From Geminicoccaceae bacterium (GTDB taxonomy: Bacteria > Pseudomonadota > Alphaproteobacteria > Geminicoccales > Geminicoccaceae), in NCBI GenBank assembly GCA_025054575.1, contig JANWZN010000004.1, forward strand, positions 1 to 58,342: 58,342 nt of DNA. The letters run 5' to 3'. The position numbers and the translations under genes are program-made. The notes under the pieces were generated by a model. It worked only from the letters and a program-made list of their open reading frames with translations, did not search any database and was not told the origin of the DNA. The number at the start of each line of letters is the position of its first letter. Position 1 is the stretch's first letter. This document shows, in pieces, positions 43,516-49,744 of the stretch.

Positions 43516-43887
43516 TCATCGGCAGGATCGAAGCCGGACCGGCGTGTCCGGGGCGAGATCGGGGAGGAAGCTCGCGAGCGGGCGACAAGGTTGTGCCGCC
43601 ACGCACAACCACCAATCCTCGGCCGCCTCGGAGCGAGCCAACACGAGCTCGCTTCGCGGTGGGACCTCCGGACGCCAGCGCCACGTCCCGCCCTCCAACC
43701 GTGCCCCGGGACCCGGTTCCATGCCGGCACCGCTGCCGCGGACGCGGCTCTCGACCGGCACGAGCAAGTCGCCCACGATCCGCCAATCTTCCTCCCACGG
43801 GATGCGCTCGACCGAGTGGATCCAGGTGAGGGTAAAGGCGACCGCGGCGAGCCGGACGGTGGTGTCGGCGGCCAGAAGGCACATCAT
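43516..43887 (-). CDS. DUF1850 protein of a TAXI-type TRAP system
   Basis: A 123-residue protein with the DUF1850 pattern: LAAVAFTLTWIHSVERIPWE, then EDWRIVGDLLVPVESRVRGSGAGMEP (in part). DUF1850 genes are repeatedly found beside TAXI-type TRAP transporters and their function is unknown. There is a hydrophobic N-terminus (MMCLLAADTTVRLAAVAF). Start 43887 shares its first bases with the stop of the fused permease (ATGA), so it is the third gene of that unit. Confidence 0.85.
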   Translation of the reverse strand: MMCLLAADTTVRLAAVAFTLTWIHSVERIPWEEDWRIVGDLLVPVESRVRGSGAGMEPGPGARLEGGTWRWRPEVPPRSELVLARSEAAEDWWLCVAAQPCRPLASFLPDLAPDTPVRLRSCR

Positions 43888-45959
43888 CCGGCCAGCTCCG
43901 CCCGCGCGCCGGCTGGCCGCGTCCGCCAGAGGTGAAAGACGAAAAAGCAGGCCGCCATGAGGAAGCCGAGTTCGTCGGTGGCCGGCAGGGCCACGACCAG
44001 GAGCGCGGCCGCTGCGAGGCACCAGAGTCTCTCGTGCCAGGCGAGTGGTCCCCGTCCCCAGCCCGTGACCGCGAACGACCAGAGAAGGATGCCCACCACG
44101 GCCTTGAGCACGACGTAAAGGGCGGCCGGGACGAAGCCGATCGTCGTCGCCATCGGATCGCCGGGCTGGAGGAGGAGCGCAGGTGCGTAGACCGCCATGT
44201 AGGGTACGACGTAGCCCGCGATCGCGAGGCGCGTGGCCGTCGTCGCGATCGCGAGATGCGAAACTCCGGCGATCGGCGAGGCGGCGAGGGCAGCGAGTGC
44301 GACGGGCGGGGTAAGATCGGCCATGATCCCGAAATAGAAGACGAACATGTGCGAGACGATGAGCGGCACGCCGAGCTCGAGCAGCGCCGGACCGGCGATC
44401 GAGGCCGTGATGATGTAGTTCGGGATCGTCGGGATCCCGGTGCCGAGCACGAGGCAGGTCAGCATCGTGAGCACGAGGCTCGCGAACAGGCTGCTCCGGC
44501 CGACATCGACGATCGCACCGGCCAGGGTCGTGGCCGCGCCGGTGAGGGTGAGTGTGCCGATGACGGTGCCGACGAGCGCGCACGCTATTCCTACCGGCAG
44601 AGCATGGCGGGCGCCGTCGGCGAGGCTGTCGCGCGCGAGCCGCAACGTCTCGCGGCCCCCGTGCACGAACCAGCAGGCGGCAACGAGGGCGGCGATCGTA
44701 ACCAAGAGCGCGTTCACTCCGAACCAACGGAAACCCGCTGCCGCGAGGCCGATCGCCAGCCAGAAAAGGAGCCGCAGGACTGGCGCCGGGATGACGCCGG
44801 CCACCGGCCGTCCGAGCACGACCATGGCGGTGAGCCCGAGCCCGACCGTGCCGGCGAAGAGCGGCGTGTAGCCGGCGAAGAGAAGCCACACGAGGGCCGC
44901 GAGCGGGAGCAAAAGATACCAATCGCGACGGAGTGCGGCCGCGGCACTCGGACATTCCGCACGCGGCAGGCCGGTCAGGCCGCGCTTACCCGCCTCGAGA
45001 TGGACCGCGACATAGGCGGTGAGGAAGTAGAGAAAGGCCGGGATCGCCGCGGCGATGCAGATCTCGACATAAGGGACGCCGATCGTCTCGGCCATGATGA
45101 AGGCCACCGCCCCCATCACGGGCGGCATGATCTGGCCACCCATCGAAGCCGTTGCCTCGACCGCACCAGCGAAACGTGGCGGGTAGCCGAACCGCTTCAT
45201 GAGCGGGATCGTGAATTGACCCGTCGTCACCACGTTGGCGACGCCGCTGCCGTTGATCGTGCCCATCAGCCCCGAGGACAGCACCGCGACCTTGGCCGGC
45301 CCGCCGCGGGTATGGCCGACCGTTCCGAGTGCTACGTCGTTGAAGAGCCGGATCATCCCTGCTCGTTCGAGAAACGCCCCGAACAAGATGAACAAGAAGA
45401 TATACGTCGACGACACATAGGTCGGGACGCCGTAAATCCCCTCCGTACCCAAAAACATCTGATCGACGATCTGGGCGAGATCGTAGCCGCGATGATCGAG
45501 CGGCGCCGGCAAGAGATGGCCGAGCAGAGCGTAAGCCAAGAAAATTGCGCACAGGATCGGCAGCGCCGGCCCCAAGAGCCGGCGCGCCGCCTCGAACACG
45601 AGCACGACGACGAGGATGCCGACCAGAACGTCCTGCGGTTCCGGCTCGCCCGCACGCAAGATCAGCTCGCGATAGAAGACCCAGTGGTAGAGGCCGAGCA
45701 GGAAGCCGAGGATCCCGAGGCCCCAGCCGCTGGCCGCGGCGAGGTCGAACCGGCCTCGGCGGTTGGCCAGGAGCGCGAAGCCCAACAGCAGCAAAAAGCC
45801 GACATGGACCGAGCGGACGACCTGGCTCGGCAAGGTGCCGTAGGCCGCGGTCCAGATCTGGAAGAGCGCGAAGGCCATCGCCACGGCGTAGGCGAGGCGA
45901 CCGGCCGCCCCCTTTCCCCATACCGCGTCCTCGGCATGCGCGGTAGGTGGAGGGTTCAT
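43884..45959 (-). CDS. TRAP transporter fused permease (DctQ-DctM fusion, TAXI type)
   Basis: A 691-residue inner-membrane protein in which the small (about 1-150) and large (about 150-690) TRAP subunits are fused, as is usual for TAXI systems. It has around 16 or more hydrophobic segments, and conserved patches include VPTYVSSTYIFLFILFGAFL (part), LSSGLMGTINGSGVANVVTT, GGQIMPPVMGAVAF, CLVLGTGIPTIPNYI and MADLTPPVALAALAA. It imports an unknown solute captured by the protein encoded upstream at 46012-46965. Confidence 0.93.
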   Translation of the reverse strand: MNPPPTAHAEDAVWGKGAAGRLAYAVAMAFALFQIWTAAYGTLPSQVVRSVHVGFLLLLGFALLANRRGRFDLAAASGWGLGILGFLLGLYHWVFYRELILRAGEPEPQDVLVGILVVVLVFEAARRLLGPALPILCAIFLAYALLGHLLPAPLDHRGYDLAQIVDQMFLGTEGIYGVPTYVSSTYIFLFILFGAFLERAGMIRLFNDVALGTVGHTRGGPAKVAVLSSGLMGTINGSGVANVVTTGQFTIPLMKRFGYPPRFAGAVEATASMGGQIMPPVMGAVAFIMAETIGVPYVEICIAAAIPAFLYFLTAYVAVHLEAGKRGLTGLPRAECPSAAAALRRDWYLLLPLAALVWLLFAGYTPLFAGTVGLGLTAMVVLGRPVAGVIPAPVLRLLFWLAIGLAAAGFRWFGVNALLVTIAALVAACWFVHGGRETLRLARDSLADGARHALPVGIACALVGTVIGTLTLTGAATTLAGAIVDVGRSSLFASLVLTMLTCLVLGTGIPTIPNYIITASIAGPALLELGVPLIVSHMFVFYFGIMADLTPPVALAALAASPIAGVSHLAIATTATRLAIAGYVVPYMAVYAPALLLQPGDPMATTIGFVPAALYVVLKAVVGILLWSFAVTGWGRGPLAWHERLWCLAAAALLVVALPATDELGFLMAACFFVFHLWRTRPAGARAELAG

Positions 45960-46011: not shown

Positions 46012-46965
46012 TCAGCGGATCAGGCCGCGCTCGCGGTAGAACCGCTCGGCACCCGGATGGAGCGGGACCGGCATGCCTTCGAGCGCTGCTTCGAGGCGGA
46101 TCTTGCGACCCTCGGCGTGCGCCGCCGCCAGCTGGTCGAGGTTCTCGAAGAGCTCTCGGGTCATCGCATAGGCGAGGTCGTCCGGGACACCGGTGTGCGT
46201 GACCAGGAAGTTCGGGATGGTGGCGGTCGGGACGTCGGCGTCCTGGCCCGTGTAGGTGCCGGCCGGGATCGTTCCAGGCCGGAACGGATCGCCGATCCTG
46301 GCGACGATCTCGGGCGACACCGGCACCATCTGGATCGCGATCGCGGTCGCGAGATCGCGAATCGAGGCTACCCCGAGACCCGCTGATTGCAGCGTGGCGT
46401 CGAGCTGTCGGTTCTTCATGAGCTCGACCGACTCGGCGAAGGGTAGATATTCGACCTTGCCGAGATCGGCGTAGGAGAGGCCAGCGGCCGCCAGGATCGC
46501 GCGAGCGTTGAGCTCGGTTCCGGAACGCGGGGCGCCGACCGACAGGCGCTTGCCCTTGAGATCGGCGAGCGTGCGGATCCCGGATTCCTTGCTCGCGACG
46601 ATCTGGACGTAGTTCGGATAGATCCCGGCGATGCCGCGCAGCTTGTCGAGCGGTGCCTTGAAGCCGGCCTCGGCGTCGCCTTTCCAGGCAGCGATCAGCG
46701 AATCGCCGAGCGTGAAGGCGATTTCACCCTTCCCGGCCTGCAACAGGTTCAGGTTCTCGACCGAAGCCTTGGTGGACTGAACGGAGGTGCGCACGCTCGA
46801 GATCTTGTCCCCGTAGATCTTGGAGAGCGCCACGCCCAGCGGATAGTATACGCCGGCCGTACCGCCCGTGAGCACCGTCACGAACTGCTGTGCCCATGCG
46901 GACGCGGTCGCGGCGAGCAGGAGCGTTCCCGCGAGCAGTCCGCCCAACAGCCTTCGCGCGATCAT
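46012..46965 (-). CDS. TAXI-family TRAP solute-binding protein
   Basis: A 317-residue exported receptor with a signal peptide (MIARRLLGGLLAGTLLLAA, cleavage after AWAQ) and the TAXI hallmarks: TGGTAGVYYPLGVALSKI, GKGEIAFTLGDSL, GIYPNYVQIVASKESGIRTL (in part), DLKGKRLSVGAPRSGTE and the C-terminal LHPGAERFYRERGLI. TAXI receptors bind small acids such as glutamate or 2-oxoglutarate; the ligand here is unknown. ATG 46965 has a strong GGGGAGG and is preferred to an upstream start at 47067 that would add an unrelated Arg-rich tail. It leads the TAXI operon. Confidence 0.93.
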   Translation of the reverse strand: MIARRLLGGLLAGTLLLAATASAWAQQFVTVLTGGTAGVYYPLGVALSKIYGDKISSVRTSVQSTKASVENLNLLQAGKGEIAFTLGDSLIAAWKGDAEAGFKAPLDKLRGIAGIYPNYVQIVASKESGIRTLADLKGKRLSVGAPRSGTELNARAILAAAGLSYADLGKVEYLPFAESVELMKNRQLDATLQSAGLGVASIRDLATAIAIQMVPVSPEIVARIGDPFRPGTIPAGTYTGQDADVPTATIPNFLVTHTGVPDDLAYAMTRELFENLDQLAAAHAEGRKIRLEAALEGMPVPLHPGAERFYRERGLIR

Positions 46966-47162: not shown

Positions 47163-48005
47163 ATGACCGAAGATTGCGTCGTTCTCGATACGGTGACCAA
47201 GCTCGGCCCCGGCGACCGCGGCCGGGTCGCGGTTTGCGCGAGCCACGGCGGGCTCTATGCCGCTTGGTGCGCCGCCAAAGCCGGTGTCCGCGCCGTCGTC
47301 CTCAACGATGCGGGGATCGGCCGCGAGGAAGCGGGGGTGGCCGGCCTCGCCTGGCTCGACCGGCTGGGCTTGCCGGCGGCCGCCCTCGATCACGACAGCT
47401 GCCGGATCGGCGACGGTGCGGACGCGCTCGCTCGCGGCGTGGTGAGCCGCGTCAACGCGAGCGCTGCCGCCCTCGGCGTCGTCGCCGGCCAGCGAACGCC
47501 CGACGCAGTCGGCCGGTTGGTCACGGCGCCGTTGCGTTTCCCCGCTGTTCCCGAGCTCGCCGAGAGCCGCAGCCGGATCGGCGAGGCCTGCCGCGACGAC
47601 ATCGAGGTCTGGGCGCTCGACTCGGTCTCGCTCGTCCGCCCGGAAGACGCAGGTGCCATCGTCGTCACCGGCAGCCACGGCGGGCTGCTCGGCGGCCGGC
47701 CGGAAAGCGCGATCGGGGTCGACGTCTTCGCCGCCCTCTTCAACGATGCCGGGATCGGCATCGATGAGGCCGGTACCACCCGGCTTCCGGCGCTCGCCGC
47801 ACGCGGCATCGCCGCCGCCACGGTCGATTGCTTCTCGGCCAGGATCGGGGAAGGCCTCTCGACCTACCGCGACGGGATCGTGAGCCGGGTCAACGCGCCG
47901 GCCGTGGCCCTCGGTGGCCGTGTCGGCATGCCCGCCCGCGAGCTGGTCGCCGTGCTCGTCGAGGCTCGCCGCGCCGGCCGCGGCCTTGCGGGAGCCGGCC
48001 GATGA
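47163..48005 (+). CDS. Unrecognised protein with two internally repeated domains
   Basis: A 280-residue cytosolic protein I cannot assign to a family. It is an obvious internal duplication: residues about 6-110 and 150-256 are homologous, offset 144-146. Both halves carry an LDxV start (8-11, 152-155), SHGG (27-30, 171-174), NDAGIG (48-53, 194-199), RIGxG (81-85, 227-231) and SRVNA (95-99, 241-245). The conserved His, Asp, Asn and Gly clusters suggest two equivalent active or binding sites. Its stop overlaps the start of a thiamine-diphosphate enzyme gene (ATGA), suggesting a partnership in one reaction sequence. It is divergent from the TAXI transporter. Confidence 0.75.
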   Translation: MTEDCVVLDTVTKLGPGDRGRVAVCASHGGLYAAWCAAKAGVRAVVLNDAGIGREEAGVAGLAWLDRLGLPAAALDHDSCRIGDGADALARGVVSRVNASAAALGVVAGQRTPDAVGRLVTAPLRFPAVPELAESRSRIGEACRDDIEVWALDSVSLVRPEDAGAIVVTGSHGGLLGGRPESAIGVDVFAALFNDAGIGIDEAGTTRLPALAARGIAAATVDCFSARIGEGLSTYRDGIVSRVNAPAVALGGRVGMPARELVAVLVEARRAGRGLAGAGR

Positions 48006-49744
48006 GGGAGGGCGGGCCTGCGATCGGCGCCAATGCCCGGCGCCGGGTGACCGGCGGCCGCTTGTTGGCCGAGATGCTGGCGCTGGCGCGACCGGGACCG
48101 ATCTTCGGCATGGGCGGCTTCCAGCTCCTGCCCTTTTACGAGGCCTGCCGTGCCCTCGGTCTCGAGCACCGGCTGATCAACGACGAGCGCTGCGGCGCCT
48201 TCGCCGCCGACGGCTGGGCCAGGATCACCAACCGGCCGGGCCTGTGCGACGCGACCCTCGGACCCGGCGCCACTAACCTCGTCACCGGGCTCGTCGAGAG
48301 CCTCAACGCCGGGATCCCGCTGATCGCGATCGTCGGCGACACGCACCGCGCGCATGCCTGGAAGAACATGACCCAGGAAGCGCGCCAGACCGAGATCCTC
48401 CGGCCCGCGGTCAAGGAGTTGATCCGGATCGAGCGGACCGAGCGGATTCCCGAGCTCCTCCGCCGTGCCTACACGGTCGCCACCTCCGGCCGGCCCGGCC
48501 CGGTCGTGTTGGACGTCCCGGAAGACGTCGCCCACGAGGAGATCGAGATCGACGCGGGCGATCTTTGGCTCGACCCGGCCACCCTCGAAGCACCCGCCCG
48601 GCCGACCCGGCCCGATCCGCGCGCCGTCGAACAGGTGGCAGCAATGCTCGCAAGAGCCGAGCGGCCGCTCCTGCTCGCCGGCGGCGGGATTCATCTCGCG
48701 CGCGCCTGGGACGCGCTCGCCTACCTGGTCGAGGAGCAGAGGATCCCGGTCGCTCACACCATGAGCGGCAAAGGCGCGATCGCCTGCACGCATCCACTCT
48801 CGGCCGGTCTGTTCGGCCGCTACAGTCGGATCGCGAACGATCTGATCGCGCGCGCCGATCTCCTGGTCGCGGTCGGGTGCAAGCTGGGCGAGATCGCGAC
48901 CCGGCGGTACCAGCTGCTGCCGGAGGGAATCCCCCTCGTCCAGATCGAGATCGTGCCCGAAGAGATCGGTCGCACCGCTAGAGTGACGGTGGGCCTCGCC
49001 GGCGACGCCCGCCTCGCGCTCGAGGATCTCGCAGCAGCACTCGGGGCGCCGCGGGTCGATCGCACGGCTTGGGTAGCCGAGGTCGCCCTTCGGATGGAGC
49101 GCTGGCGCGAGGAAGCGATGCCCCGGCTTCGCTCGGACGAGCGCCCGATCCACATGGCGCGCCTCGTTCACGAGATCCAACGGGCCTTGCCCGAGGACGG
49201 CGTCCTGGTCGCCGACGGCGGCTTCGCCGCGCATTGGGCCGGTCTCTTGTTCGACACCCGCCGCGCCGGGCGCCACTTCCTCGCCGACCGCGGCTTCGCG
49301 TCGATCGGTTACGGTCTGCCCGGGGCGCTCGGCGCCTCCCTCGCCGCGCCCGATCGAGCGGTGGTGGGCCTCACCGGCGACGGCGGCTGCAACATGGTCT
49401 TGGGCGAGCTCGAGACCGCACGGCGGCTGGGCGCCGCCTTCACCCTCGTGGTCGTCAACAATGCCGCTTCGGGCTATGTCAAAGCCCTCCAGCACGCGAT
49501 GTACGGCGCCTATCAATCGAGCGATCTGATCGAGCTCGACTATGCCACGATTGCGCGTGCGATGGGCTGCCGCGGCATCCGGGTCGAGGATCCGGCCGAG
49601 CTCGCCCCGGCACTCGCGGCCGGGCTCGCCGAGCGGAGCGTGCCGACGGTGGTCGACGTGGTCGTGACGCGCGATCCGGCACGAATGCTGCCGGCGGTCG
49701 ACAGCCGGGTGCTCAGGGTGAGCCGCGGCGATCGCCCGGCTTGA
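48002..49744 (+). CDS. Thiamine-diphosphate enzyme (acetolactate synthase-like)
   Basis: A 580-residue ThDP enzyme of the acetolactate synthase/benzoylformate decarboxylase superfamily, acting on 2-oxoacids. The catalytic Glu is in HRLINDERCGAFAADGWAR near 57-75. The middle domain includes LLLAGGGIHLARAWDALA. The ThDP/Mg motif is GDGGCNMVLGELETAR near 459-474, followed by LVVVNNAASG. The exact substrate (for example pyruvate, oxalyl or sulfo-compounds) cannot be decided. The start is ATG 48002 overlapping the stop of the repeated-domain protein. Confidence 0.88.
   Translation: MREGGPAIGANARRRVTGGRLLAEMLALARPGPIFGMGGFQLLPFYEACRALGLEHRLINDERCGAFAADGWARITNRPGLCDATLGPGATNLVTGLVESLNAGIPLIAIVGDTHRAHAWKNMTQEARQTEILRPAVKELIRIERTERIPELLRRAYTVATSGRPGPVVLDVPEDVAHEEIEIDAGDLWLDPATLEAPARPTRPDPRAVEQVAAMLARAERPLLLAGGGIHLARAWDALAYLVEEQRIPVAHTMSGKGAIACTHPLSAGLFGRYSRIANDLIARADLLVAVGCKLGEIATRRYQLLPEGIPLVQIEIVPEEIGRTARVTVGLAGDARLALEDLAAALGAPRVDRTAWVAEVALRMERWREEAMPRLRSDERPIHMARLVHEIQRALPEDGVLVADGGFAAHWAGLLFDTRRAGRHFLADRGFASIGYGLPGALGASLAAPDRAVVGLTGDGGCNMVLGELETARRLGAAFTLVVVNNAASGYVKALQHAMYGAYQSSDLIELDYATIARAMGCRGIRVEDPAELAPALAAGLAERSVPTVVDVVVTRDPARMLPAVDSRVLRVSRGDRPA

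Follow-up and report, generated by a model that had tools for sequence, protein, structure and literature searches.

A duplicated DUF1805-like protein coupled to a ThDP enzyme in Geminicoccaceae: predicted fold, gene context and a putative role in acid cleavage

A Geminicoccaceae bacterium (GenBank assembly GCA_025054575.1) encodes a protein made up of two copies of one domain, whose gene overlaps that of a thiamine-diphosphate (ThDP) enzyme and which co-occurs across the class with this enzyme and with a PDH-type E1 alpha/beta pair; very probably the three form one functional module. The whole stretch of DNA that was analysed, referred to as the window, comprises 58,342 nucleotides (contig JANWZN010000004.1, positions 1 to 58,342). 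If the role proposed below is correct, a fold so far described only as a domain of unknown function would receive its first function, several hundred "hypothetical" proteins would be explained, and an acid-cleavage module common in Alphaproteobacteria would get a name. The features of the locus are listed in Table 1.

Table 1. Coordinates of the features in the window
Feature	Position	Strand	Basis
Fused TRAP permease	43884..45959	-	TIGR02123, 690.8 bits
TAXI-family TRAP solute-binding protein, start re-assigned	46012..46965	-	TIGR02122; sequence
Duplicated-domain protein, 280 aa, DUF1805-like fold (predicted)	47163..48005	+	ORF; family alignment; AlphaFold2 pLDDT 97.4
Repeat 1, about residues 5-122	47175..47528	+	hhalign of halves
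Linker strand (E134 invariant, R136 nearly so) and repeat 2, about residues 134-275	47562..47987	+	
ATGA stop/start overlap (translational coupling)	48002..48005	+	sequence
Acetolactate-synthase-fold ThDP enzyme, 580 aa	48002..49744	+	Pfam TPP_enzyme N/M/C; NCBIfam; PDB alignments

The duplicated-domain protein, its family and its predicted fold

Profile-profile alignment of the two halves of the protein (hhalign) gave 42% identity over 119 aligned columns with P 99.9% and E 7e-38, far above chance. Four motifs occur once in each half: SHGG (residues 27-30 and 171-174), NDAGIG (48-53 and 194-199), RIG(D/E)G (81-85 and 227-231) and SRVNA (95-99 and 241-245). An earlier sequence-only reading of this DNA had described two copies of one domain with these common motifs, which is borne out; its repeat length of about 105 residues is to be revised, as the alignment of the halves puts the repeat closer to 120. 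In a 66-row alignment of the family the residues S27, H28, D49, G51, G53, G83, D87, G92 and N98 of repeat 1 are invariant, as are S171, H172, G173, D195, I228, G229, S233 and G238 of repeat 2 and E134 between the repeats. The linker strand together with repeat 2 has the layout of the single-domain homologues.

The family was found in 48 of 385 genomes of the class, and the genome collection contains at least 334 stretches that encode it. The window's closest relatives are MAGs of Geminicoccaceae, and all five other genomes of the same genus that were searched carry the gene. The family is rare outside the class: when the class to which a betaproteobacterial member belongs was searched, 3 of 369 genomes had it, and for the phylum of a planctomycete member the count was 2 of 199. 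Further members are located on plasmids of haloarchaea and Rhodococcus, and single-repeat forms occur in the family. No relative was detected in the viral contigs and the E. coli genomes searched. In one genome from the same family of bacteria as the window (G390) two overlapping single-repeat genes in tandem (L143, 7623-8437) replace the fused protein, which suggests that the repeats can work as separate subunits; these split genes adjoin a tartronate-semialdehyde-reductase-like gene, two SDR genes and TRAP genes.

The AlphaFold2 model of the whole protein is confident (pLDDT 97.4), and that of repeat 2 alone has a pLDDT of 93.0. With VIA-align the top structural neighbour of both models is PDB 1qw2 (TA1206), which we take to be the DUF1805 representative. 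The whole model matches it over 92 residues with Z 8.1; the single repeat reaches Z 8.0 and covers 91 of its 102 residues at 2.6 A, against 3.9 for the structure ranked next. Foldseek gave no match below E 0.001 for either model. From the 1qw2 match each repeat is predicted to have the fold of DUF1805 (PF08827), a family with B. subtilis YunC among its proteins. Against PF08827 the window protein scores 18.7, the Pfam gathering cut-off being 29.5; two family members score above it (L036, 31.7; L127, 34.1), and a DUF1805 Pfam match, mostly sub-threshold, was seen in 27 of 32 family members. The PF08827 profile had no match in the 58 genomes of the class searched with it.

The duplicated-domain protein differs from DUF1805 proteins in having two copies per chain, and its family differs from them in a longer SHGG...NDAGIG insert and in the absence of the central G(Y/F/I)(I/L)xC motif, which DUF1805 proteins possess. 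Its profile matches a true DUF1805 profile weakly (P 22%, 34 columns, C-terminal motif only). Because of this weak match and the missing motif the protein is labelled, on the strength of its models, as DUF1805-like in fold and is not filed as an ordinary member of DUF1805. No reaction can be read from the fold, as DUF1805 itself has no known function; the literature on DUF1805, YunC/TA1206, 4p8b, BbmA and 3-oxo-isoapionate yielded no functional account.

Pfam, NCBIfam, PDB sequence and structure searches matched the protein to no enzyme family. The earlier statement that it belongs to no known family therefore holds for characterised enzyme families, but has to give way for the fold, where two members pass the Pfam cut-off; the check proposed at that time, structure prediction of one repeat followed by structural search, is the one that led to 1qw2 and to no enzyme family. 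The searches also returned two candidates that were rejected. A match to Y-family DNA polymerases (IMS, PF00817) consists of a helix motif of about 30 residues, GxxSxxNxxAxxLGVxxGM, with the polymerase domain absent. The PDB sequence search with protein and profile returned only this motif and chance matches, and the polymerase match is an annotation trap, unfit for naming the protein. The match to a YqiA-type esterase (UPF0227, 10.9 bits) is a beta-turn-helix likeness only.

On three betaproteobacterial plasmids (L161, L162 and L166) the gene immediately after a true DUF1805 gene is histidine-kinase-like, and a response regulator is encoded on the other strand; from these neighbours a signalling role of DUF1805 is possible.

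The ThDP enzyme and the E1 pair

The TGA of the duplicated-domain gene (48003-48005) overlaps the ATG of the ThDP gene (48002-48004), as had been noticed before. The longest mechanical ORF of the ThDP gene opens at TTG 47828; the N-termini of homologues fall near residue 4 of the product that starts at 48002. This product has the TPP N, M and C domains and the GDGG...NN ThDP motif, and in PDB alignments its DER motif places a Glu opposite that of the HEQ motif in acetolactate synthase (ALS). It shares the three domains and the aligned catalytic Glu with acetolactate synthases and PRK06112 ThDP enzymes, but reaches 369 bits against TIGR00118 (equivalog cut-off 538) and 378.5 bits against NF004772 (cut-off 673), and is far under all equivalog and subfamily cut-offs among the NCBIfam matches listed.

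The ThDP enzyme (match at E 1e-150 or better) and the E1-alpha copy adjoining the pair (strong match at E below 1e-105) were searched in the same 385 genomes of the class. The ThDP enzyme occurs in 36 genomes, 34 of which carry the duplicated-domain protein. PDH-type E1-alpha likewise occurs in 36, all of them with the protein (two in its single-repeat form), so that E1-alpha without it was found in 0 of 385, and the ThDP enzyme is present in 34 of these 36. All three proteins are found together in 34 genomes and, counted by family, in 17 of the 19 ThDP-bearing families; Fisher p-values for co-occurrence range from 5e-35 to 6e-44 and ignore shared ancestry.

Within 6 kb, a ThDP gene is located at 70 and an E1 at 46 of 89 loci, a set biased to close relatives since 80 of the loci are the best 80 of at least 334 relatives. 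Neighbours were named from ORF homology clusters with NCBIfam and Pfam scans of representatives. Their orientation and gene order vary among loci, which speaks against a frozen block, and in a tree of 91 proteins the link to the ThDP gene is spread over the main branches, with examples from a betaproteobacterium, a planctomycete and a Vulcanimicrobiota MAG. The expectation that the pair would be conserved in other genomes is thus supported. The three-way set is also kept where its members are hundreds of kb apart (G380 and G197), and in the window's own genome the E1-alpha partner is found on another contig (C132, 2052-3008).

The E1-beta partner resembles PDH and acetoin-dehydrogenase E1 subunits with 342.7 bits at a subfamily cut-off of 321, whereas the E1-alpha partner stays under its cut-offs. 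At 47 loci no lipoyl-domain motif, the only feature used in this test, was found within 6 kb of E1, so that the E1 probably works without a local E2. An SDR gene stands immediately before the E1 pair in a related complete genome (G131, L168).

By analogy with the small subunits of acetolactate synthases, the repeat protein could, rather than being an enzyme, serve to regulate or stabilise the ThDP enzyme as one of its subunits, held at a fixed ratio by the coupling. The ATGA overlap and the presence of the protein in nearly all ThDP-bearing genomes (34 of 36) agree with this, and differing ALS-like ThDP enzymes adjoin the protein in a planctomycete (L141) and its single-domain form in a gammaproteobacterium (L144). 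A subunit would, however, hardly be expected in the 14 genomes of the class that have the protein or its single-repeat form without this ThDP enzyme, in haloarchaea, where it stands with OiaX/OiaK homologues and a ThDP gene was not found nearby, or at the distant loci of G380 and G197; moreover, the polar residues invariant in both halves resemble an active site. We regard a subunit as unlikely, and consider it likely that the duplicated-domain protein is an enzyme.

Transporters and neighbouring genes

The TAXI receptor scores 375 bits against TIGR02122 (cut-off 84), and the fused permease likewise exceeds its cut-off (TIGR02123, 321 bits). The mechanical ORF call places the start of the receptor gene at GTG 47067; this is probably a mis-start, as ATG 46965 is preceded by a GGAGG-like site and fits a signal peptide. 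The sequence-only reading had taken this divergent TAXI system as the third partner. Its identity as a TAXI system is confirmed by both profiles, but the association is genus-specific, other TRAP or TTT systems being found elsewhere, and the conserved third partner is the E1 alpha/beta pair, which had been missed.

TRAP genes are near the gene in 26, TctC receptors in 15, and either TRAP or TTT genes in 35 of the 89 loci, 80 of which are the best of at least 334 relatives. At a betaproteobacterial locus (L160) the TRAP genes lie between the ThDP gene and the duplicated-domain gene, and at L116 the genes for E1-alpha, E1-beta, DctP, DctQ, DctM, the ThDP enzyme, the duplicated-domain protein and IclR follow each other on one strand. 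The DctP receptors of seven linked loci share 54-67% identity with PDB 4p8b, the closest three 65-67%. This structure was presumably solved with (S)-2-acetolactate as ligand. A review (PMC5812351) counts 2-acetolactate as one of the TRAP ligands that the Enzyme Function Initiative identified. Receptors of the 4p8b type occur in 42 of 150 Burkholderiaceae genomes, and in this family the corresponding TRAP system lies next to the E1 pair at 5 of 14 loci. At one Burkholderiaceae locus (L187) it stands beside a TAXI receptor and a fused permease with 67% and 63% identity to their counterparts in the window, an arrangement that connects the TAXI system of the window with the same module. PADLOC gave no match, nor did Rfam at the locus of the window.

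Many TRAP receptors bind sugar acids, and the module might degrade an ordinary sugar acid or tetronate, with the repeat protein as its lactonase, epimerase or isomerase. Such a role is in line with a UxaA/galactarate-dehydratase homologue in some marine loci and with L-threonate-dehydrogenase-like, HpcH-aldolase, SDR and DRL-type reductoisomerase genes close by. These genes are patchy, with UxaA at 5 and HIBADH at 4 of the 89 loci (80 being the best of at least 334 relatives), whereas the ThDP enzyme and E1 are constant, and the closest solved TRAP receptor is, as we understand it, not of the sugar-acid type. Degradation of an ordinary sugar acid or tetronate is accordingly considered unlikely.

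A candidate acid-cleavage pathway

In haloarchaea the protein adjoins homologues of 3-oxo-isoapionate kinase and 4-phosphate decarboxylase (OiaK/OiaX), and in an Acetobacteraceae genome OiaK/OiaX homologues, a DRL-type reductoisomerase, the duplicated-domain protein and the ThDP enzyme are encoded in one cluster. The linked homologues, at 425 and 505, and 344 bits, are all far under the equivalog cut-off of 700, and OiaK/OiaX are not encoded at the window locus. 3-Oxo-isoapionate has the structure of a dihydroxylated acetolactate. The common denominator of the linked chemistry could be a 2-hydroxy-2-(hydroxy)methyl-3-oxo acid, cleavable by an ALS-type enzyme in reverse.

For the enzyme status of the protein, the substrate class, the order of steps and the reaction of the protein we infer the following, with a probability of about 0.35 for the whole. 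A TRAP-type importer, TAXI in the window, would bring in a small organic acid of the acetohydroxy-acid class. This would be a branched 2-hydroxy-2-(hydroxy)methyl-3-oxo acid, for which 2-acetolactate and 3-oxo-isoapionate are examples, or else a precursor that a dehydrogenase would turn into such an oxo acid. The duplicated-domain protein would be an enzyme of the cytoplasm in which the DUF1805-like fold occurs twice, and would belong to one catabolic module with the ThDP enzyme and the E1 pair; it would ready the substrate either through a step of the isomerase or epimerase type (e.g. an alpha-ketol shift) or through hydrolysis. Cleavage of the C2-C3 bond by the ThDP enzyme, in a reverse acetolactate synthase reaction, would then yield a 2-oxo acid plus a C2 unit, and one of these products would be processed by E1 alpha/beta. 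The repeat protein is placed before the cleavage because the ThDP enzyme and E1 rarely occur without it, while it is found without them. The earlier suggestion of an uptake-and-cleavage pathway with an uncharacterised enzyme is in essence retained as the best reading of the gene context, given the conserved ThDP enzyme and the linkage to transporters in 35 of the 89 loci (80 of them the best of at least 334 relatives). In a more specific version, rather doubtful at present, the repeat protein would be the first of the DUF1805 fold with catalytic activity, an isomerase or hydrolase that needs no cofactor and acts in an undescribed acetohydroxy-acid catabolism with a ThDP lyase and an E2-less E1.

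The window's own receptor, being of the TAXI type, stands against an acetohydroxy acid as substrate. Some plasmid homologues adjoin CoA-transferase, crotonase or thiolase genes, and together with the 14 genomes lacking this ThDP enzyme they indicate that the substrate class may be broader. The protein might even act on a CoA thioester or 3-oxo acid of several pathways, with the tie to the ThDP enzyme as one use. The neighbours on Rhodococcus, Aminobacter and Rhizobium plasmids do differ (CoA transferase, thiolase, crotonase, AMP-ligase), and these homologues belong in part to the most divergent branches of the tree; yet their branches are very long and they may be paralogues with a different function, and the ThDP enzyme and E1 predominate in the main clade, which makes such wider use distinctly unlikely.

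In a planctomycete (G413; L141, 5622-13136) the protein and a TRAP system each occur twice, in alternation, and after them comes a divergent ALS-like ThDP gene, the product of which is 29% identical to the window's ThDP enzyme. At L183 (530-4901) the ThDP gene is followed by nucleotidyltransferase, cupin and TauD-like dioxygenase genes. In a gammaproteobacterium (G448; L144, 4691-7865) a single-repeat homologue is flanked by genes for a ScyA/ALS-like ThDP enzyme and a beta-ketoacyl synthase III; this grouping has the look of a small cluster for biosynthesis, not for catabolism.
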